A stretch of 58,865 bases of DNA from SAR202 cluster bacterium bin22 (lineage in GTDB: Bacteria; Chloroflexota; Dehalococcoidia; Lucifugimonadales; UBA3495): assembly GCA_002238505.1 (NCBI GenBank), contig MPMM01000022.1, positions 1 through 58,865 on the forward strand, read 5' to 3'. The notes beneath the pieces are model-generated. The model was not told where the DNA came from and did not search any database. It was given only the letters and a program-made list of their open reading frames with translations. The position numbers and the translations under genes were made by a program. The number at the start of each line of letters is the position of its first letter. Within the stretch, counting starts at the first letter, position 1. Below are positions 1-58,865 of this stretch, one piece after another.

Positions 1-105
1 GCCCAGCGCCCAGTTGTAGGCGAACCGGGCGTAGCCAGCGTGCTGGGCGAACCGGGATTCCTGCTCCGCCGTTGGTCTCAACGCTATCCGGTGGGACTTA
101 AGCAT
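1..105 (-). CDS. tnpB: TnpB RNA-guided nuclease, N-terminal fragment (runs off the window)
   Basis: The minus strand reads MLKSHRIALRPTAEQ, then a stretch ending FAYNWALG, before the window ends. This is the classic N-terminus of IS200/IS605-type TnpB (HRI.L.PT..Q...F....G..RFAYNWAL). TnpB proteins are RuvC-fold endonucleases guided by an RNA from the right end of their own element. Only 35 codons are visible, so the catalytic residues and zinc finger cannot be checked. The ATG is at 105-103. This opening differs clearly from the TnpB genes at 35, 41, 46 and 58 kb, so it is a separate subfamily. Confidence 0.85.
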   Translation of the reverse strand, partial: MLKSHRIALRPTAEQESRFAQHAGYARFAYNWALG

Positions 106-543
106 AGGGAAAGCCTACCCAATGACCACCCTCTCCCGCAAGAAGCTGCTGTCAGTAAACTCCGCTCCAGCCGTGAAGAATGTCAGATATTACAAAGTAT
201 CATCAGATAACAGCAGATTAGAGCCAACAGTTAAAAGCCCTTCCACCACGGAATCGAAAAAACCTGACAGTAGGTTGGAGACCGGCAAGAGCGTACCTCC
301 CCTGAAGGAACGCAGGTTGAACGGGGACACCAGCGACGATTGTCAACAATACATCAACCAAAAGTCAAGAACATAGACGGCCAAAACCGGCAATCAAGGG
401 AGACCGCCCCCGACGAGGTCCAAGGCATCCCATAGCTGATCCAAACCGCCGGAATCCGTACGACCTGAACCAGGCTATTGTCGGGACGGGACGGGCCAAT
501 GGGAAGGGCGTCCATGGCCCTCTCCTGAAGCCGCCTGAGACGC
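106..543. other. gap with no convincing gene
   Basis: This stretch lies between the start of the minus-strand TnpB gene and the 3' end of the next minus-strand gene. Bases 120-400 are less GC-rich than the rest of the window. A plus-strand open frame at 122-376 (84 codons, Ser/Lys-rich) has no ribosome binding site that I can see and no recognisable motif. Part of the stretch is probably the left end of the TnpB element. Confidence 0.4.
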
Positions 544-35140: not shown

Positions 35141-35202
35141 CCGCCAGGCGAAGGCCAGGGATCTGACAGATTCCTGACCGGCTGCCCGAAGGGCCAGGAG
35201 GG

Positions 35203-36776
35203 AGAAAATTGCGAAACTCTGAAAAGCAGAGAGACTGACAGTTGCCCGTTGAATATCAACCCCGACAACAGGTACAAATAAACCATGCAGAACTGCCAGG
35301 TCAGAGCCATGAAGGCCCAGGGCCGCGTCAACAGCCCAGCAGCGCTCCGCCGGCTGGAGCAGGTGCTGAACCAGCTCAGGGAACTCCACGACGCCTGCCT
35401 CTACCAGTGGCGCCTCGCCGAGAATAACCACGAGCCCAAATGGTTTGACGCCAACCGGCAGCAGAAGGAGCTTACCCTAATGCGGGCCCACAGCCCGGAG
35501 CACGACAACGTCCTGCGGAGACTCCAGGACAACGTGATACGCCACACGGCGGCCAGATGGAACAAGTACCTTAAGGACGAGAACACCGGCAGACCCCGCT
35601 ACAAGACCGGCAGGTTCCGCACCATCGCCCTGGACTCGCCGCAAGGAAGGGTAATAAGGTTTACCGCAACAGGCAAGCCAGTGCTGCACATAAACTCCTT
35701 GCCAGCCATCAGGCTGCTGACCAGCCAGCAAATCCCCTCTGACCGGCAACCCAGGGCCGTGAGAATTACCCTGAAGGGCAGGATGATCCACGTAAGGCTT
35801 TCGTACCAGTTTGAATTGCCGGAAAGGCTGGAACCCACCCTGGCCACCAGCCCCGTAGGCGTCGACCTGGGCATCGCCCTGTCAATGGCCACCTCCACCG
35901 GACAGACATTCCGGTCCCCGAAACAAGCTTACCTGCAGACACAGGAGCGAAAGGCCCGCCGGAAGCTGAGCAAGGTTATAGCAGCCGCAATGGCCACCGG
36001 CACAGCCGGGTTCAGGGCAGCCCTGGACGCTGACGGCAGACAGAGACTCACCAAAAAGGGCCGTCCCATGCGGCAACTAGTGTGGAGTTCAGGCAAACCC
36101 ACCAAGTCCTACCTGAAGGCCAGGAGACGGCTTTCTGCCATTACGGAAAGACTGGCCCTCCTGAGACGCGAGTTCCGACACCGGGTTACAACCAGTCTGA
36201 TTGAGAAGGCAGCAGCTGAAGGCAGGGACCTGCTGGCAATGGAAAACCTGCAGGTCAAGAACATGACCGCCTCGGCCCGGGGAACGGTGGAAAAACCCGG
36301 CCGAAACGTCCGGGCCAAGTCCGGGCTGAACCGCGCCATCCTACAGGAAGCGTGGGGCGAGACCCTTACCATGCTGGAATACAAGGCTGAAAGAGCCGGC
36401 ATCGCCAGCGTCAGGGTCTACGCCCAAGCTACATCCATTACCTGCAGCTGCTGCGGCCACAGGGACCCGAAATCCCGAACCTCCCAGAGCAGATTCAAAT
36501 GCACCGCCTGCGACTACCAGGCCAACGCCGACTTTAACGCGTCCCTGAATATCGCAGACCGGGGAATGCTCTACTTCCAGAAACGAAAGGGACTGAGCAT
36601 CGAAGACCTGAGACAGGCCAGGAGAGATGAAAGTCACTCCGGCGGAACAGAAGGCCCGGAAACGGGACCCGCTGGGCACCCTGCCTCACAGACCAGCCAA
36701 GAAAGCCCGATAAACGCGAGCGCCTCTGTACTGACCAGGCGTGACCCGGCCCAGGCAGAGAGTTTCGCAATTTTCT
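35203..36776 (+). mobile_element. TnpB element 1 with inverted terminal repeats
   Basis: AGAAAATTGCGAAACTCT (35203-35220) and its exact reverse complement AGAGTTTCGCAATTTTCT (36759-36776) bracket the TnpB gene. ACTGACAG lies 31 bases from the left end. The TnpB stop codon starts at the last base of the right repeat. No transposase gene is present. The exact cut points are not known. Confidence 0.7.
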
Positions 36777-36778
36777 GA
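35285..36778 (+). CDS. tnpB: TnpB RNA-guided nuclease (copy 1)
   Basis: A 497-residue protein. The RuvC-fold active site is complete: VGVDLGIALS (Asp194), LLAMENLQVKNM (Glu320) and ANADFNASLNIADRG (Asp416). A zinc finger lies between them (CSCCGH at about 387 and KCTACD at about 406). TnpB is guided by an RNA that overlaps the 3' end of its own gene and cuts matching DNA. Between the first motif and the helix that follows there is an extra loop of about 35 residues (DADGRQRLTKKGRP). It is about 80% identical by eye to copy 2 at 41560. The guide would come from bases just after 36776. Confidence 0.9.
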   Translation: MQNCQVRAMKAQGRVNSPAALRRLEQVLNQLRELHDACLYQWRLAENNHEPKWFDANRQQKELTLMRAHSPEHDNVLRRLQDNVIRHTAARWNKYLKDENTGRPRYKTGRFRTIALDSPQGRVIRFTATGKPVLHINSLPAIRLLTSQQIPSDRQPRAVRITLKGRMIHVRLSYQFELPERLEPTLATSPVGVDLGIALSMATSTGQTFRSPKQAYLQTQERKARRKLSKVIAAAMATGTAGFRAALDADGRQRLTKKGRPMRQLVWSSGKPTKSYLKARRRLSAITERLALLRREFRHRVTTSLIEKAAAEGRDLLAMENLQVKNMTASARGTVEKPGRNVRAKSGLNRAILQEAWGETLTMLEYKAERAGIASVRVYAQATSITCSCCGHRDPKSRTSQSRFKCTACDYQANADFNASLNIADRGMLYFQKRKGLSIEDLRQARRDESHSGGTEGPETGPAGHPASQTSQESPINASASVLTRRDPAQAESFAIF

Positions 36779-41211: not shown

Positions 41212-41499
41212 ATGATCAAAAGATTGCTGACCATAGGGGCCTGCTTCACGATCAGTGCCGCCGCAGTGGCGGCGCACATGGCGCTGTACGGGACGGAATG
41301 CGACCCATACCGGACCCCATGCGGCTCCCGGCTGCTGGCCGCGGCCACCATCATCCCAATCCTGGCCGCGTCGCCCCTGGCCGTCAGCGAATGGCTGACG
41401 CCGCGGCACCGAGGGACCCTGAGAAGGTACATGGGCCGAGTCTCAACGGAAGAGCCCACGGAAGATGAAACCGAGAAGGAGACAATTGCGAAACTCTAA
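41212..41499 (+). CDS. small membrane protein whose end was altered by TnpB element 2
   Basis: A 95-residue protein with two hydrophobic segments (LLTIGACFTISAAAVAAHMA; LLAAATIIPILAASPLAVS). The last residues TIAKL and the TAA are encoded by the left end of TnpB element 2 (from about 41480), so the original C-terminus is lost. The original gene probably continued or ended near the AAGGAG at 41476-41481. Confidence 0.5.
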   Translation: MIKRLLTIGACFTISAAAVAAHMALYGTECDPYRTPCGSRLLAAATIIPILAASPLAVSEWLTPRHRGTLRRYMGRVSTEEPTEDETEKETIAKL

Positions 41500-43051
41500 A
41501 AAGCAGAGACTGACAGTTACCCGTTGAACATCCACCCTAACGTCAGGTAAAAATAAACCATGCAGAACTGCCAGGTCAGAACCATCAAGGCCCAGGGCCG
41601 CGTCAACAGCCGAGCGGCACTCAGCCGGCTGGAACAAGTGCTGGACCAGCTCAGGGAGCTCCACGACGCGTGCCTCTACCAGCACCGACTAGCCGAGAAA
41701 AACCACGAGCCCAAGAGGTTTGACGTCAATCGCCAGCAAAAGGAGCTTACCCTGCTGCAGGCCGACAGCCCGGAACAAAACAACCTCCTGCGGAGACTCC
41801 AGGGCAACGTGATACGCCACACAGCCGCCAGATGGAACAAGTACCTGAAGGAAAGCGCCACCGGCAGGCCCCGCTACAAGACCAGCAGGTTCAGGACCAT
41901 CGCCCTGGACTCGCCCCAAGGAAAGGTCATGAGGTTTACCGCCTCCGGCAAGCCGGTCCTGCACATCAGCTCCCTGCCAGCCATCAGGCTGCTGACCAGC
42001 CAGGAAATCCTCGATGACCGGCAGCCCAGGGCCGTGAGAATCACCCTGAAGGGCGGAAGAATCCAGGTCAGGCTTTCGTACCAGTTTGAGGTGCGAGAAA
42101 GGCAAGACCCCACCCTGGCAACCAGCCCCATAGGCGTGGACCTGGGCATCGCCCTGTCAGTGGCCACCTCCACAGGCCAGACATTCCAGTCCCCAAAACA
42201 GCTATACCTGCAAGCGCAGGAGCGAAAGTACCGGCGAAAGCTGAACAGGATCGTAGCATCCGCTATGGCCACCGGCACAGCCGGGTTCAGGGCCGTCCTG
42301 GACGCTGACGGAAGCCAAATGCTAACCAGGAAAGGTCGTCCCATGCGGGAACTGGTGTGGACCTCAGGAAAGCCAGCGAAGGCGTACCTGAAGGCCAGAA
42401 GAAGGCTGTCGGAAATTACGGAAAGGCTGGCGCTGCTGAGACGCGAGTTCCGACACCGGGTTACCACCAGTCTCATTGAGAAAGCAGCAGCTGAGGGCAG
42501 GGACCTGCTGGCAATGGAAGACCTGCAGGTCAGGAACATGACCGCCTCAGCCCGGGGGACGGTGGAAAAACCCGGGCGCAACGTCCGGGCCAAGTCCGGC
42601 CTGAACCGCGCCATCCTCCACGAAGCCTGGGGCGAAACCCTTACCATGCTGGAATACAAGGCTGAGAGAGCTGGTATCCCCAGCGTCAGGGTCAACGCCC
42701 AGGCCACATCCATCACCTGCAGCTGCTGCGGCCACAAGGACCCGAAATCCCGAAACTCGCAGAGCAGCTTCAAATGCACCGCCTGCCATTACCAGGCCAA
42801 CGCCGACTCCAACGCGTCGCTGAATATCGCAGACCGGGGAATGCTCTACTTCCAGAAACGGAAGGGACTGAGCATCGAGAGCCTGAGACAGGCCAGGAGA
42901 GACGCAGGTCTCTCCGGCGGGACAGAAGGCCCGGACACGGGACCCGCTGGGCAGCCTGCCTCACAGAACAACCTAGAAAGCCCGACAAACGCAAGCAAAT
43001 CTGCCCTGACCGGGCCTGATCGGGGCAAAACAGAGAGTCTCGCAATTTTCT
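41480..43051 (+). mobile_element. TnpB element 2 with inverted terminal repeats
   Basis: AGACAATTGCGAAACTCT (41480-41497) faces AGAGTCTCGCAATTTTCT (43034-43051), an imperfect inverted pair (two mismatches). ACTGACAG lies 29 bases from the left end. It lies between AAGGAG on its left and an ATG on its right (43053), so it probably separated a start codon from its ribosome binding site. Confidence 0.7.
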
Positions 43052-43053
43052 GA
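41560..43053 (+). CDS. tnpB: TnpB RNA-guided nuclease (copy 2)
   Basis: A 497-residue close relative of copy 1, same length. The catalytic residues are IGVDLGIALSVATS, LLAMEDLQVRNM and ANADSNASLNIADRG. The zinc finger is CSCCGHKDP...KCTACHYQ. The frame is intact. The same extra loop occurs after the first RuvC motif. The stop codon lies at the right terminal repeat and overlaps the ATG of the next gene (TGATG), so that gene may now rely on translation of TnpB. It is likely active in reRNA-guided cleavage, by family knowledge. Confidence 0.9.
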   Translation: MQNCQVRTIKAQGRVNSRAALSRLEQVLDQLRELHDACLYQHRLAEKNHEPKRFDVNRQQKELTLLQADSPEQNNLLRRLQGNVIRHTAARWNKYLKESATGRPRYKTSRFRTIALDSPQGKVMRFTASGKPVLHISSLPAIRLLTSQEILDDRQPRAVRITLKGGRIQVRLSYQFEVRERQDPTLATSPIGVDLGIALSVATSTGQTFQSPKQLYLQAQERKYRRKLNRIVASAMATGTAGFRAVLDADGSQMLTRKGRPMRELVWTSGKPAKAYLKARRRLSEITERLALLRREFRHRVTTSLIEKAAAEGRDLLAMEDLQVRNMTASARGTVEKPGRNVRAKSGLNRAILHEAWGETLTMLEYKAERAGIPSVRVNAQATSITCSCCGHKDPKSRNSQSSFKCTACHYQANADSNASLNIADRGMLYFQKRKGLSIESLRQARRDAGLSGGTEGPDTGPAGQPASQNNLESPTNASKSALTGPDRGKTESLAIF

Positions 43054-43538
43054 TGCACGGGGAACAGTTCCGCAACCAGCTCACCAGACTGATCAACGAC
43101 CTAGCCAGGGCCTGGGCAGACGCCCAGTCCACCGCGACGCCGCCCAACCGGCGGCTGACCATCGGCCGCCGGACGGCCCGCGCCAACGCGCTGCGCCGGC
43201 TGAAAAAGCACAACCCCCAGGTCGCAGACCTGGAAACCACGCAAAACGACGTGGTAAGCGCCGCAGCCCTCAACCGGGCCGCCAACGCCGCCGTCCGGCT
43301 GACCGCCGCCAGAATGATCCAGGAGCTGGACAGCCTACCAGGAGGAATAGACAACCGATCCCTGGCGAAGGCCGAGGCATACCAGCAGGCCAGGCGCGAG
43401 GTGCTGAGACAGCTGGGGTCAGAGGAAGGGAGCCCTCCCGGCAGTGCCACCAAAAGCTCCCCCGGGAACAAACGCCTAAGGCGCAACTGGAAGCCTGACA
43501 TTCCAGACCGTGACCGGCGCTTCAAGTCTGACCGCTAA
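43053..43538 (+). CDS. hypothetical basic helical protein
   Basis: A 161-residue protein whose ATG overlaps the TnpB copy 2 stop. It is rich in Arg and Ala (NRRLTIGRRTARANALRRLK; LNRAANAAVRLTAARMIQEL) and probably helical. No family is recognised. Its own ribosome binding site was probably displaced by the TnpB element. Confidence 0.5.
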   Translation: MHGEQFRNQLTRLINDLARAWADAQSTATPPNRRLTIGRRTARANALRRLKKHNPQVADLETTQNDVVSAAALNRAANAAVRLTAARMIQELDSLPGGIDNRSLAKAEAYQQARREVLRQLGSEEGSPPGSATKSSPGNKRLRRNWKPDIPDRDRRFKSDR

Positions 43539-46663: not shown

Positions 46664-48010
46664 GGGGAATTACATAGAAGACGATCCAGATTCACTGACA
46701 GCAGACCATTGACCAACCCGGGAAGCACGAAGGAACATACCTGTATGACCAGACCAGACGAACAGCTCCAGACCTTCCAGCTACGCGGCTACTGCTCAAA
46801 AGCAGGATACCAGCGGCTGCACAAAGTCCTGAATATGAGCCGTACCCTCTACAACGCCGCCCTGCAGGAACGCCGAGACGCCTACCGTCACAGCAAGACG
46901 CAGATCCCCTACACCCACCAGCAGAACCAGATGACCCTGATCAAGCAGGATCTGCCCGAATACCGGGAAATCGACAACCGCGTCTGGAGAGCCGCCCTAC
47001 GGAGACTGGACAAGTCCTTCAACGCCTTCTTCCGAAGAATCAAAAGGGGAGAAACCCCCGGCTACCCCAGGTTCAAGGGGAGAAGCCGCTACAAGACCAT
47101 CGAGATGGTGGCCGCCCACCCGAGCATGCTTAAAACCGCCCCAGACGGCCGCAGGGCATGGCTAAGAGTCAAGGGCCCCCGCTATCCAGCTCAGGCCAGG
47201 CAGAGCCCTGCCCGACAGCAGCCTGCTGAAGAACTTCAGGATTACCATGCGCCCCACTGGCCTCACGGTGGACCTGCTCTACGAAAGGGCAGCGGCAGAA
47301 AACCCGCCTACCGTCCGCCCACCAGCAGGTCCGGCCGTCGGCATAGACCTGGGCGTGAACCACCGACTCACCCTCTCCGACGGCACAATCGTCCAGCCAA
47401 GAGAAATAGACCGGACCAGGGAGGAAAACCTGCGCAGAAGAATCTCCACCGCCAGGAAGGGCAGCAACCGCCGCCACAAAAGGGTCAAAGGCCTGGCAAA
47501 GGAGTGCCGACGCAACCAGGTCAGAAACCGCAATCAGTGCCACCGCATCACCAGCAAACTGGTCAGGGAATACTCCCTGATAGCCATCGAGAACCTCAAG
47601 CTCCGCAATTTGACCGCCTCCGCCAACGGAACAGTCGAGGAGCCCGGCTCCAACGTAAAACAAAAGGCCGGCCTCAACCGTTCTATCCTGGAACAGTCCC
47701 TGGGACTGATAACACAGCAGCTGCGCTACAAGGCAGAATGGGCCGGTGTACAGCTGATAGCCGTCAACCCGGCGAACACCTCAAGGACCTGCTCCACGTG
47801 TGGAGCAATCAACGGAGAGAAACTGGCCGAATACCGGGTATTCAGATGCCCGGGCTGCGGGCTCGAAACGGACCGGGACCTGAACGCAGCTATCAACATA
47901 CTGAACAAGGGCCTTAAGGCCCAGCAGGGCGGGAATCCCCCTGCCGCCCCACCCGGGGCGATGACAACAGGAGGACTGGTCCCTCAGGGATCGTCTTGTA
48001 TGTAATTCCC
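46664..48010 (+). mobile_element. TnpB element 3
   Basis: GGGAATTACATA (46665-46676) and TATGTAATTCCC (47999-48010) are inverted. ACTGACAG lies 30 bases from the left end, as in elements 1, 2 and the partial one at the window end. The element sits inside a small zinc-finger gene: ATG-GGG-AAT-TAC on the left and TAC-ACC-TGC-GAC on the right. Confidence 0.6.
46745..48005 (+). CDS. tnpB: TnpB RNA-guided nuclease (copy 3), frameshifted
   Basis: About 419 residues after repair. The N-terminal half (QTFQLRGYCSKAGYQRLHKV) is in one frame up to about 47175. The rest is in another, joined by LPAIQLRPGR-like sequence upstream of ATG 47247. The frame breaks at a GGGCCCCC run (about 47174-47181). The active site is complete: VGIDLGVNHRLTLS, LIAIENLKLRNLT and ETDRDLNAAINIL, with CSTCGAI...CPGCGLE as zinc finger. 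It is a different TnpB branch from copies 1 and 2. One indel in the run could be an error or inactivation. Confidence 0.82.
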
Positions 48011-50821: not shown

Positions 50822-51231
50822 GCATACGCATGAGGGGCCGCTGGCCCGACGAACCCGGTACCACCGAGCCCGCCAACCTGGACCACGCGGTCGAGGAGAC
50901 CGAGAACGCCGTCTACGAAGCCATCGACGCCGCCCACCAGGCACAACAGGCCGGGCTGCCATTCACCGACGCCCTGACCCGGGAGCTGGCCCGCACCCTG
51001 GACACGACGCCCCGCGCCACCGTAACCGTGGAGGACGGCCTGGCCATGGTCCTGCAGTCCGTCGAGGACACCGGAACCAGCGATACCGGGCACCGGTCCT
51101 GGGACGGCTACGAGGCGCTGATCGAGGGCATACGCGACCACAGCCTTTACCACCTGGCCCGCCCCGGCGAGTGCGGGCAGAACTGCCCGGCCTACATCAC
51201 ATTCGCACTGGAGGAGGTAACCCCCGAGTGA
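50818..51231 (+). CDS. hypothetical protein next to the IscB element
   Basis: A 137-residue protein from TTG 50818, overlapping the previous stop. Helical segments (LDHAVEETENAVYEAIDAAH; SWDGYEALIEGIRDHSLYHL) and two Cys near the end (GECGQNCPAY). No family is recognised. Its TGA marks the left edge of the IscB element. In IscB systems the guide comes from sequence left of the omega-RNA, so this gene's 3' end may serve as guide. Confidence 0.5.
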   Translation: MSIRMRGRWPDEPGTTEPANLDHAVEETENAVYEAIDAAHQAQQAGLPFTDALTRELARTLDTTPRATVTVEDGLAMVLQSVEDTGTSDTGHRSWDGYEALIEGIRDHSLYHLARPGECGQNCPAYITFALEEVTPE

Positions 51232-51542
51232 ACGCCATGGCTTTGCACCAAAACTGAGCCTCAGGCGCCTCAAGGAGCCTGACCGCCCATCAGCAGTGCA
51301 CTGCACAGCCCCAGCCGGATGAAGGGACTTGAAACAAATCTGGCTACGCCCCCGGAGGGGCAAAGAATAACGACCTGCCGGTGCTTCGCCAGCCGACAGC
51401 TCTCCAACCAAAGGGCGACATCCGCCCCAAGGTGAAGAATCCCCTCCGGGGCATGGGCGAGGCGACGGGCCGGAATCCGGACAGTCACCCCGGTTCCAGC
51501 CCATACAACCAGGGTTTGCAACCCAAAACCGGAGTAACCACC
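51232..51542 (+). ncRNA. candidate omega-RNA of the IscB element
   Basis: A 311-base noncoding stretch directly upstream of iscB, where omega-RNAs (HEARO RNAs) lie. Local stems are visible: GCCCC-CGGA-GGGGC at 51348-51361, AGCCGGAT/ATCTGGCT near 51313-51345, and GGGCG-ACATC-CGCCC near 51412. The 5' guide would be the bases left of the scaffold. Exact ends are not defined. Confidence 0.7.
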
Positions 51543-52955
51543 TTGGCAAGACACATCTCACCACATAACCAGACCTCCGTACCAGTCCTGGACAAGGACG
51601 GAATACCCGTAGCGCCGACCAGGCCCTCACGGGCCAGAAGACTACTGGACCAGGGACGAGCGGCAAAGACCTGGAAACACGGCCGGTTCGCTATCCGGTT
51701 GAGCGACATCAGCAAGGCCGACTGCTCGGTACCCGACGTAACGCTGGGCATAGACCCCGGCGCACGCACCACCGGCATGGCCGTCACGGTGACAACCCCC
51801 GACGGGGAAAAGATTGTCCACGGCTGCCAGGTCAGGCACCGGGGACACCGCATCAGCCAGGCAATGCTCAGCCGGAGATCCTACCGCAGGAACCGGCGCA
51901 GCCGGATAAGAAGACGTCCCGCCAGATTTAACAACCGGACCAGAAGGCAGGGCTGGCTCCCGCCGTCGCTGGAATCCATCAGAGCCAACATCCGGACCAA
52001 CGTCAGTCACCTGACGGAGCTGTTTCCGGTCTCCGTCATAAATGTCGAGACCTGCCGGTTCGACCCCCGGCTCATCGCCGATCCTGACGTTTACGGCGAC
52101 GGATACCAGACCTCCGAGAGAGCAAATATGCAGGTCCGTGAGTACGTCCTACAGAGGGACCGCAGAACCTGCCAGTATTGCGGCAAAACCGGCGTCCGGC
52201 TGGAGGCAGACCACATCGTGCCCCGCAGCAGGGGTGGAGCCTACCGGATAGCCAACCTGATAGCAGCCTGCCACGACTGCAACCAGGCCAAGAGCAACTT
52301 GCCGGTGGAACACTTTCTGAAGGACAGACCAGAGACCCTGAGGAAGCTCAGACAGCAGATGAGATCTTCGCTGCAGTCAGCGGCCCACATGAACGCCCTC
52401 GTACCCTTCGTAATAACGGACGTCGAGAGTCTGGGCATACCCGTCAGGGAAACCGACGCAGTCAACACGGCATTTACCCGCACACAGCTGGGCATTGAGA
52501 AATCTCACGTCAACGACGCGGCCTGCCTGGGGGAACCCCCAGCGCTGCTGAACGTGCCAACGTCGATCACTGTCATATCCGCCACCGGGCACGGAAAGAG
52601 ACAAATGCTCACGCAAATGAGCAAGCACGGCACGCCTCGGTTCCAAACGGGAGCCGCCGGAAAGTACCACGGATACCGGGCCTGGAGCCGATTGCCAAGG
52701 CAACGGCAGGGCTTCACCACCATGCCCGGGCACAAGCTCCGACAACGGAGAAGTCACGGCATCGCCAGCGGAGACCTGATAGCCTACCGGCACCCAACGG
52801 ACGGAAAGGTAACCGGCTACGCCGTGCTAGCTAACCGAAAAACCCGGGCGAGAGCGTCGGGCATGAAATCGGTCAGAGTGACCGAGACCAGGCTGATTGC
52901 CCGAAACAACGGGTACCAGTACCAGAAGCAAACCAACTCAAACCAGGAGAATTGA
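51543..52955 (+). CDS. iscB: IscB RNA-guided nuclease
   Basis: A 470-residue protein from TTG 51543 (the frame is open further upstream, but that part is the RNA). Domains in order: PLMP-like head SVPVLDKDGIPVAPTRPSRA; RuvC-I LGIDPGARTTGMAV (Asp71); Arg-rich bridge helix RRSYRRNRRSRIRRRPARFN; RuvC-II VINVETCRF (Glu169); HNH CQYCGKTGVRLEADHIVPRS with a second CHDC pair; RuvC-III KSHVNDAACLGE (His322, Asp325). All catalytic residues are present. IscB is the ancestor of Cas9 and cuts DNA using the omega-RNA guide. The gene appears intact. Confidence 0.95.
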   Translation: MARHISPHNQTSVPVLDKDGIPVAPTRPSRARRLLDQGRAAKTWKHGRFAIRLSDISKADCSVPDVTLGIDPGARTTGMAVTVTTPDGEKIVHGCQVRHRGHRISQAMLSRRSYRRNRRSRIRRRPARFNNRTRRQGWLPPSLESIRANIRTNVSHLTELFPVSVINVETCRFDPRLIADPDVYGDGYQTSERANMQVREYVLQRDRRTCQYCGKTGVRLEADHIVPRSRGGAYRIANLIAACHDCNQAKSNLPVEHFLKDRPETLRKLRQQMRSSLQSAAHMNALVPFVITDVESLGIPVRETDAVNTAFTRTQLGIEKSHVNDAACLGEPPALLNVPTSITVISATGHGKRQMLTQMSKHGTPRFQTGAAGKYHGYRAWSRLPRQRQGFTTMPGHKLRQRRSHGIASGDLIAYRHPTDGKVTGYAVLANRKTRARASGMKSVRVTETRLIARNNGYQYQKQTNSNQEN

Positions 52956-52962
52956 TCCAAGA

Positions 52963-53250
52963 ATGGATTTTGATGCAAAGCAGAACGCCATTGAGATAGC
53001 CCCAACCCTGGAGGACTTCCGCCAGTGGGTCAGAGACCAGGAACACGACGGCGACGAGCCGCCCCCCTTCTGGGGGACCATCCACCACCCGGACTACCGA
53101 CACGGCATAGACGTCAACATCGAGCTGGACGAGGAGACCGAGGTATACACCGCCTGGGTCTACCCCAACTATATCGATAAGGCCGGATACCTGGCCGCCG
53201 ACACCGGCGTGCTCCTGGCCGCCATACCGTCCACCCAATGGCCCCAGTAA
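52963..53250 (+). CDS. hypothetical protein
   Basis: A 95-residue protein from ATG 52963, eight bases after iscB. The sequence (LEDFRQWVRDQEHDGDEPPP; FWGTIHHPDYRHGIDVNIEL) is acidic and mixed alpha/beta. It is rather like a small immunity or modulator protein in size, but there is no family match. It may be host DNA right of the IscB element. Its end overlaps the next gene. Confidence 0.45.
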   Translation: MDFDAKQNAIEIAPTLEDFRQWVRDQEHDGDEPPPFWGTIHHPDYRHGIDVNIELDEETEVYTAWVYPNYIDKAGYLAADTGVLLAAIPSTQWPQ

Positions 53251-58346: not shown

Positions 58347-58585
58347 CCTTCGCCAGGACCACCGAGATCCCCGGCGAGCTGACCGAATACGCCGTCCTGG
58401 AGGACGGCGTGGAGATCGGAACCCTGTACCGTGAATGGGACATCATGACCGAATGGGGCATCGACGCCCTGCTGGAGGAGCGGTTCGGCGCCAACGCCGC
58501 CAGCGGCCACGACAACGTCCGCTCCGCCATGGCCGAGCTGAAAAGGCTGCACCGGCAACAGAAGAAGGAGGAGAAAACCAGTTGA
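58340..58585 (+). CDS. small hypothetical protein next to a TnpB element
   Basis: An 81-residue protein from ATG 58340. A beta-like head (LTEYAVLEDGVEIGTLYREW) is followed by a helix ending KRLHRQQKKEEKTS. The left end of another TnpB element begins a few bases after the stop, so its original downstream neighbour is displaced. Confidence 0.5.
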   Translation: MLTFARTTEIPGELTEYAVLEDGVEIGTLYREWDIMTEWGIDALLEERFGANAASGHDNVRSAMAELKRLHRQQKKEEKTS

Positions 58586-58587
58586 TG

Positions 58588-58865
58588 AGAAAATTCCGCT
58601 ACTCTTCAAGCCCCACTGACAGCAGCTAATTGCCAACTGACAGTAGCCGACATACAGTCAACCCAGGAGCTGCGCCCATGCCAGCAACCAGCCTGCAATA
58701 CAAGCTGACCACCACCAGAACCGGCTACCAACAGCTGAACCAGGCACTGCTGGATATGGGCTACCTCCAGAACGCCCTCATCCGCCACCGGAGATCAGCC
58801 ACCGGCTGCCACAAGGGGCAATTCTCCCTGAAATTGCAGAATGCCGCCCTCACTGAACTACGCCA
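58588..58865 (+). mobile_element. TnpB element 4, left end only (runs off the window)
   Basis: AGAAAATTCCGCTACTCT (58588-58605) resembles the left end of elements 1 and 2. ACTGACAG occurs at 58615 (27 bases in) and again at 58636. A TnpB gene starts at 58678. The right end lies beyond the window. Confidence 0.65.
58678..58865 (+). CDS. tnpB: TnpB RNA-guided nuclease, N-terminal fragment (copy 4)
   Basis: The first 62 codons (MPATSLQYKLTTTRTGYQQL, then LQNALIRHRRSA) match the N-terminal helical region of TnpB copy 3 (QTFQLRGYCSKAGYQRLHKV). The catalytic part lies outside the window. The upstream end has the same terminal and ACTGACAG signals as the other plus-strand TnpB elements. Confidence 0.7.
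   Translation, partial: MPATSLQYKLTTTRTGYQQLNQALLDMGYLQNALIRHRRSATGCHKGQFSLKLQNAALTELR

Follow-up and report, generated by a model that had tools for sequence, protein, structure and literature searches.

Bacterial TnpB nucleases have been described as partners of the Y1 transposase of IS605 or the serine transposase of IS607, and the related Fanzor nucleases in many DDE transposons. Typical IS200/IS605 elements have no terminal inverted repeats, and neither IS200/IS605 nor IS607 elements make a target-site duplication. In the sections of PMC3627910 and PMC10711439 drawn on here, Fanzor1 and Fanzor2* are placed in terminal-inverted-repeat (TIR) DNA transposons from several DDE families; many of these elements encode no transposase themselves, and their repeats are predicted to contribute to the guide-RNA scaffold. 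Mobile insertion cassettes and transporter ISs, as outlined in the available text of PMC3129680, consist of IS ends around passenger genes and can be moved by a cognate transposase from elsewhere. Some IS1182-family elements insert at palindromes, and no duplication accompanied new copies of IS1272 (in the parts of PMC5678879 consulted). A search of the open-licence PMC literature returned no report of IS1182- or IS1595-type ends on a TnpB from bacteria.

The window analysed here, a stretch of 58,865 nucleotides, corresponds to contig C56 in an assembly of 4.39 Mb (58 contigs, 97% complete) and holds four TnpB elements whose ends are of three types, A to C (Table 1). The TnpB elements of this genome and its relatives are like Fanzor elements, as far as these are covered by the sources above, in placing a TnpB-family nuclease in TIR elements, with target duplications at 3/7 two-ended copies, and unlike them (Fanzor belongs to eukaryotes or their viruses) in their bacterial host, in the use of TnpB and in their IS1182-like and IS1595-like ends. 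Since these TnpB units are bounded by the ends of cut-and-paste transposons, they seem to depend for movement on the enzyme of another element; we put the probability at about 0.7 that tnpB and its guide RNA are cargo in cassettes with DDE transposon ends, moved in trans. Our best reading thus combines known kinds, a mobile insertion cassette with a Fanzor-like housing of an RNA-guided nuclease, and would make these units a bacterial counterpart of Fanzor elements.

Table 1. Positions in the window of elements 1–4 and of the IscB element.
Feature	Position	Strand	Remarks
Element 1, left terminal inverted repeat	35203–35220	+	type A (IS1182-like)
Element 1, ACTGACAG box	35234–35241	+	
Element 1, tnpB	35285–36778	+	497 aa
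Element 1, right terminal inverted repeat	36759–36776	-	type A
Element 2, left terminal inverted repeat	41480–41497	+	type A
Element 2, ACTGACAG box	41509–41516	+	
Element 2, tnpB	41560–43053	+	497 aa, 83% identity with element 1
Element 2, right terminal inverted repeat	43034–43051	-	type A
Element 3, left terminal inverted repeat	46665–46687	+	type C (IS1595-like)
Element 3, ACTGACAG box	46694–46701	+	
Element 3, tnpB	46745–48005	+	split by frameshift; N part in frame of 46745, C part in frame 47247–48005
Element 3, right terminal inverted repeat	47988–48010	-	type C
Element 4, left terminal inverted repeat	58587–58604	+	type B (IS1182-like), GAGAAAATTCCGCTACTC
Element 4, first ACTGACAG box	58615–58622	+	
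Element 4, second ACTGACAG box	58636–58643	+	
Element 4, tnpB, N-terminal part	58678–58865	+	element truncated by contig end
IscB element	51239–52982	+	15-nt inverted ends (13/15); IscB gene within 51381–52955

The arms of element 1 are 18 nucleotides long and 100% complementary, and their alignment score of 36 (200 shuffles gave at most 26) bears out the perfect 18-base pair described in the first-pass annotation. Element 2 has the same arms, imperfect as had been reported (16/18), with a score of 26 that taken alone is barely above chance (95th percentile 25, maximum 32; 200 shuffles). The inverted pair ascribed to element 3 is real, and the 12 bases it was given must be corrected to 23 with one mismatch (22/23). 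The tnpB stop codon, which had been located at or in the right repeat of the first three copies, overlaps the repeat end in element 1 (TGA, 36776–36778) and element 2 (TGA, 43051–43053); in element 3 this holds only through the downstream frame of the split gene, whose TAA (48003–48005) falls in the right repeat. The stop of element 2 overlaps the next ATG (TGATG, 43051–43055). Purine-rich, Shine-Dalgarno-like stretches directly precede elements 1, 2 and 4 (35195–35203 for element 1 and 58555–58587 for element 4; noted without a chance comparison). Some 400 bp downstream of element 2, the segment 43444–43545 overlaps the 3′ end of a small open reading frame and shares about 76–78% identity with the guide-RNA scaffold region found in TnpB elements on contig C23; it looks like a remnant of another element. 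Rfam gave no match within the window at gathering scores.

Two pairs of near-identical copies diverge exactly at the repeat, which places the inverted repeats at the edge of the mobile unit and not outside it: element 4 and its C23 counterpart match at 275/280 positions inside the unit and 60/109 outside (chance level), the copies on C34 and C36 at 565/601 inside and 57/114 outside. We compared the flanks of 15 two-ended elements (7 TnpB and 8 others, with a slack of 0–3 bases; element 4, C34 and C36 have one end only) and found direct repeats of 6–9 bp at the edges of 10, against 0/210 left/right pairs taken from different elements. By class, they flank 7/8 of the others, the 18-kb element of G066 being the one without, and 3/7 TnpB elements (6–7 bp: ATCTTCA at L008, GAATCAG at L015 and GGATTG at L009, all with IS1182-like ends). 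The remaining four TnpB elements, namely elements 1 and 2 with their IS1182-like ends, element 3 and the G030 copy, have no duplication in the flanks compared. Some of the non-TnpB insertions sit in palindromes, an example being the 8.7-kb element of G066, whose flanks together form an inverted repeat; by analogy with IS1272, palindrome targeting without duplication could account for elements 1 and 2. Comparison of the window with the other contigs found no empty site, that is, no uninterrupted homologous site. Joining the flanks across three sites gives open frames, which are frequent in this DNA anyway.

These flanks also bear on whether the elements are simply TnpB-only members of IS200/IS605 (IS1341-type), moved by Y1, with repeats that are incidental or were gained when an IS605 landed in a MITE. 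TnpB-only elements are common; in addition to the missing duplications at elements 1–3, other TnpBs of the same genome, and nearly all of 61 tested loci, have no such repeats. We nevertheless regard this origin as unlikely, because duplicated copies have the repeat itself as the edge of their unit, duplications of 6–7 bp in 3/7 are unexpected for Y1 elements, unrelated TnpBs have the same ends in common, and those ends also bound DDE transposons and small cassettes without TnpB. The elements are like the IS200/IS605 and IS607 TnpB elements portrayed in the portions of PMC9956272 and PMC6188088 used here in encoding TnpB with an expected right-end guide RNA, and unlike them in their true terminal inverted repeats, which that group's definition denies, in some target duplications and in that no Y1 or serine transposase gene was seen inside the 1.3–1.6 kb units.

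The transposons from which such ends could come are found among relatives. The type A pattern AGARAATTGCGAAACTCT (≤1 mismatch) occurs in 10/50 family genomes, with 0 matches for the reversed control, and the type B pattern in 5/50, with 1 control match. In these relatives, type A/B end pairs enclose cargo transposons of 8.7–18 kb, including L206 (11.8 kb), L207 (18 kb) and L298 (10 kb), each with a DUF772 plus DDE_Tnp_1 protein (Pfam) inside the cassette and adjoining one end; L208 is likewise a cargo transposon with a transposase match near one end (search at E≤1e-20). The best NCBIfam match for the L206 and L207 transposases is IS1182, with NF033551 scores of 151 and 81 bits that fall below the curated cut-off of 270, and we therefore name the A/B transposases IS1182-like; the L298 transposase is 36% and 43% identical to those of L206 and L207. 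The group is like the IS1182 family (for example, IS1272, as far as the consulted parts of PMC5678879 describe it) in joining a DDE transposase to inverted repeats, and unlike it in its score (151 against 270), its cargo cassettes of 8.7–18 kb and its 6–9 bp duplications. The L206-type transposase is present in 15/50 family genomes (E≤1e-20), and 11 of the 30 loci found with it have a type A or B end at ≤2 mismatches (shuffles 0 for type A), the other 19 having neither at that threshold. The cargo of L207 includes a helicase-like protein.

Type C ends flank IS1595-family transposases (PF12762 with a zinc ribbon) in G065 and G059. The G065 element (2.9 kb) carries its transposase with a methyltransferase and is flanked by an 8-bp duplication, TTTTCGAT; both of its ends equal the first 15 nucleotides of the right end of element 3, and the ends of the G059 element are close to type C, a pattern that at ≤2 mismatches in relatives has a visible chance background in controls. 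Element 3 is thus like the IS1595 family in its ends, and unlike it in holding only tnpB and in the absence of the 8-bp target duplication of the IS1595 kind. Transposases with matching ends, candidates for the mobilising enzyme that the first-pass annotation proposed to look for, exist in related Dehalococcoidia genomes and were not found in the window's own assembly: there, the A/B group has no match at E≤1e-20 or at E≤0.001, the two IS1595 transposases are without type C ends, and the DUF772 proteins have other ends. Matches to AGARAATTGCGAAACTCT in named genomes were set aside, being mainly from Candidatus Rhodobacter lobularis, whose contigs (for example, L100–L104) hold about 80 intergenic tandem-hairpin repeats, a different repeat with type A sequence by coincidence.

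Matching IS1182-like ends at elements 1, 2 and 4, L008, L009, L015, C34 and C36, and matching IS1595-family ends at element 3, align these units with mobile insertion cassettes as sketched in the cited text of PMC3129680; the likeness lies in IS ends around a passenger gene, and the difference in a passenger that is the nuclease of another transposon type and in the lack of a cognate transposase found in the same assembly. In the cassette reading, these are non-autonomous units of about 1.3–1.6 kb that have a DDE end on each side of tnpB and its 5′ ACTGACAG box, with a region at the right end expected to yield the guide RNA. Their ends are copies of the terminal inverted repeats of same-family transposons, IS1182-like for types A and B and IS1595-family for type C, and we infer that a cognate DDE transposase acting in trans would recognise the repeats, move the cassette and leave a 6–9 bp target duplication. 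Short cassettes that have these ends and 7–9 bp duplications but no TnpB lie at L063 (2300–3178, G000:C13) and L302 (698–2444, G000:C24), the C13 cassette containing a PIN-domain VapC-like gene and being flanked by a 9-bp duplication.

The inverted repeats are not confined to the window: other TnpB copies of the genome have them too. The TnpB zinc-finger family matches 16 places in the assembly, two of which are one element, leaving 15 loci. Among these, inverted ends score above all 200 shuffles at elements 1 and 3 and at the C23 copies L008, L009 and L015, the margin being small for L009 (30 against a shuffle maximum of 28) and element 2 being borderline. The TnpBs on C34 and C36 are truncated by contig ends, and their single visible end is type B. 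The genome contains 16 matches to the type A core AAAATTGCGAAACTCT at ≤2 mismatches (reversed control, 0), and 7/15 TnpB loci have none of these ends by the inverted-end scan and the later end scans of contigs examined. A wider inverted-end test of 61 TnpB loci (32/34 and 4/5 of two locus sets, 16 from family or order relatives and 9 from the own genome) detected ends nowhere but in the own genome, in its near-copy from IMG/VR and, as a weak 11-nt pair, in G030 L018; it missed element 3, which two other tests detected. Because the IMG/VR viral contig IMGVR_UViG_3300002159_000054 (L201–L203, L340, L341) holds the C23 TnpB elements with identical spacing, C23 is probably a phage or phage-like replicon.

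Ends and nucleases have been reassorted, to judge from their sequences. Elements 1 and 2 have type A ends in common with L008 and L015, and TnpBs only 28–32% identical to theirs; for element 1 and L015, 46/46 left-end bases agree at 28% TnpB identity. Conversely, the TnpBs of L008 and L009 are 81% identical and their ends type A versus type B. The TnpBs that bear the three end types are not one another's nearest relatives, and end type does not track TnpB relatedness; since unlike TnpBs have the same ends and like TnpBs different ones, ends were swapped or captured on more than one occasion. The earlier suggestion that these elements form a separate TnpB family with end-recognition rules of its own is not supported: the ends are DDE transposon ends of the host family, and one TnpB family with ends private to it was rejected, as unrelated TnpBs have the same ends and related TnpBs differ. 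With the same ends on different nucleases and the reverse in one bacterial genome, the partner switch becomes directly testable, and TnpB-only elements merit checking for DDE transposon ends.

The TnpB of element 1 matches solved TnpBs and scores 177 bits against guided_TnpB (NF040570, NCBIfam cut-off 100). Inspection of the alignment by eye identifies its RuvC motif residues (VGVDLG, AMENL and NADFNAS), and motif residues are kept in both element 1 and element 2. In element 3 the gene is interrupted by a frameshift or an assembly error, and that of L015 is also broken, near the C-terminus. TnpB is probably an active RNA-guided nuclease, whose guide would derive from the sequence that follows the right repeat.

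Five right ends (L008, L015, L009, C34 and C36) align with a conserved stem set, in which 11/46 predicted pairs have double changes and the inner part of the repeat pairs with a segment upstream of it. Fold energy is lower with an end's own repeat type than with the other type in 5/5, by 0.8–6.4 kcal/mol, the gain being only about 1 kcal/mol in two of the five and C34 and C36 being near copies; duplex shuffles in the guide-RNA end test were mostly not significant. These predictions only suggest that the borrowed repeat is part of the guide-RNA fold, with its inner part probably forming the 3′ strand of the last stem. The pairing in all five right ends would also suit repeats that act mainly in RNA, as transcript-end or scaffold pairing that regulates TnpB, with mobility secondary; we think this improbable, as tnpB-free elements have the same ends and duplications, and an RNA role is compatible with the cassette reading. 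The idea that the right repeat is instead a TnpB guide against the left end or same-ended transposons, as a defence or regulatory RNA, draws on arms of 15–23 nucleotides, near guide length, on the match to the ends of competing transposons and on a TAM-like T-rich stretch after the left repeat, and is similarly improbable given that both arms lie at the edges of moving units with target duplications beyond, that tnpB-free elements such as the VapC-like cassette with its 9-bp duplication have the same ends, and that a guide identical to its own end would cut its own element.

An IscB element lies on the same contig (match of 319.8 bits, cut-off 175), directly flanked by the 9-bp GAACGCCAT at 51230–51238 and 52983–52991, which reads as a target duplication. 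A 9/9 match at two random borders arose 10 times in 200,000, for a pair that had been spotted before testing. Its inverted pair, taken alone, scores 23 and does not exceed shuffles (95th percentile 26). Ends like those of the IscB element (type D), partly short inverted pairs, occur in relatives over a visible chance background, and a search around them found no transposase. Tentatively, and at somewhat less than even odds, we propose that this Dehalococcoidia lineage, together with its phage-like replicons, has repeatedly re-housed TnpB and IscB between different DDE ends, and that the borrowed repeat has become part of the guide RNA, which would let the nuclease work with a new transposase. 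If true, such re-housing would parallel the Fanzor way of life in bacteria and would reveal how a nuclease comes to switch transposases.

The ACTGACAG box, previously noted inside the left end of elements 1–4, is indeed there, about 29–32 bases in. The window has 7 copies against 1.65 expected, a count reached in 1/100 shuffles; one (42154, minus strand) is inside the element 2 gene and another (149, minus strand) in a further truncated TnpB element at the window start. Measured from the GAAAATT core, the box is at offset 26–30 in six tnpB left ends of type A/B; element 3 has it at a similar distance, and the L009 left end is without it. Among 65 distinct type A/B ends, a count that excludes loci L100–L205, the exact box is found only at the six tnpB left ends, and two transposon lineages have it with one mismatch. 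TnpB elements of another type, without type A–C ends, also carry it (at the window start, on C28 and in one C9 copy), and a second C9 copy has ATTGACAG instead. A part in the transposon end is excluded by the restriction of the exact box to tnpB left ends among type A/B ends, and it is not an end-recognition rule held in common with those transposons, since it travels with tnpB, including into TnpB elements that lack these ends. A G030 end with the box was dropped as support because the box lies in an apparent toxin-like coding sequence, with no TnpB. From its distribution, we read the box as a tnpB-linked 5′ element, a candidate promoter or operator. The other-type TnpB element at 1–240 (minus strand) comprises a left end, with no type A–C end, and the N-terminus, and is 96.7% identical to the C28 copy and 74–79% to the two C9 copies.
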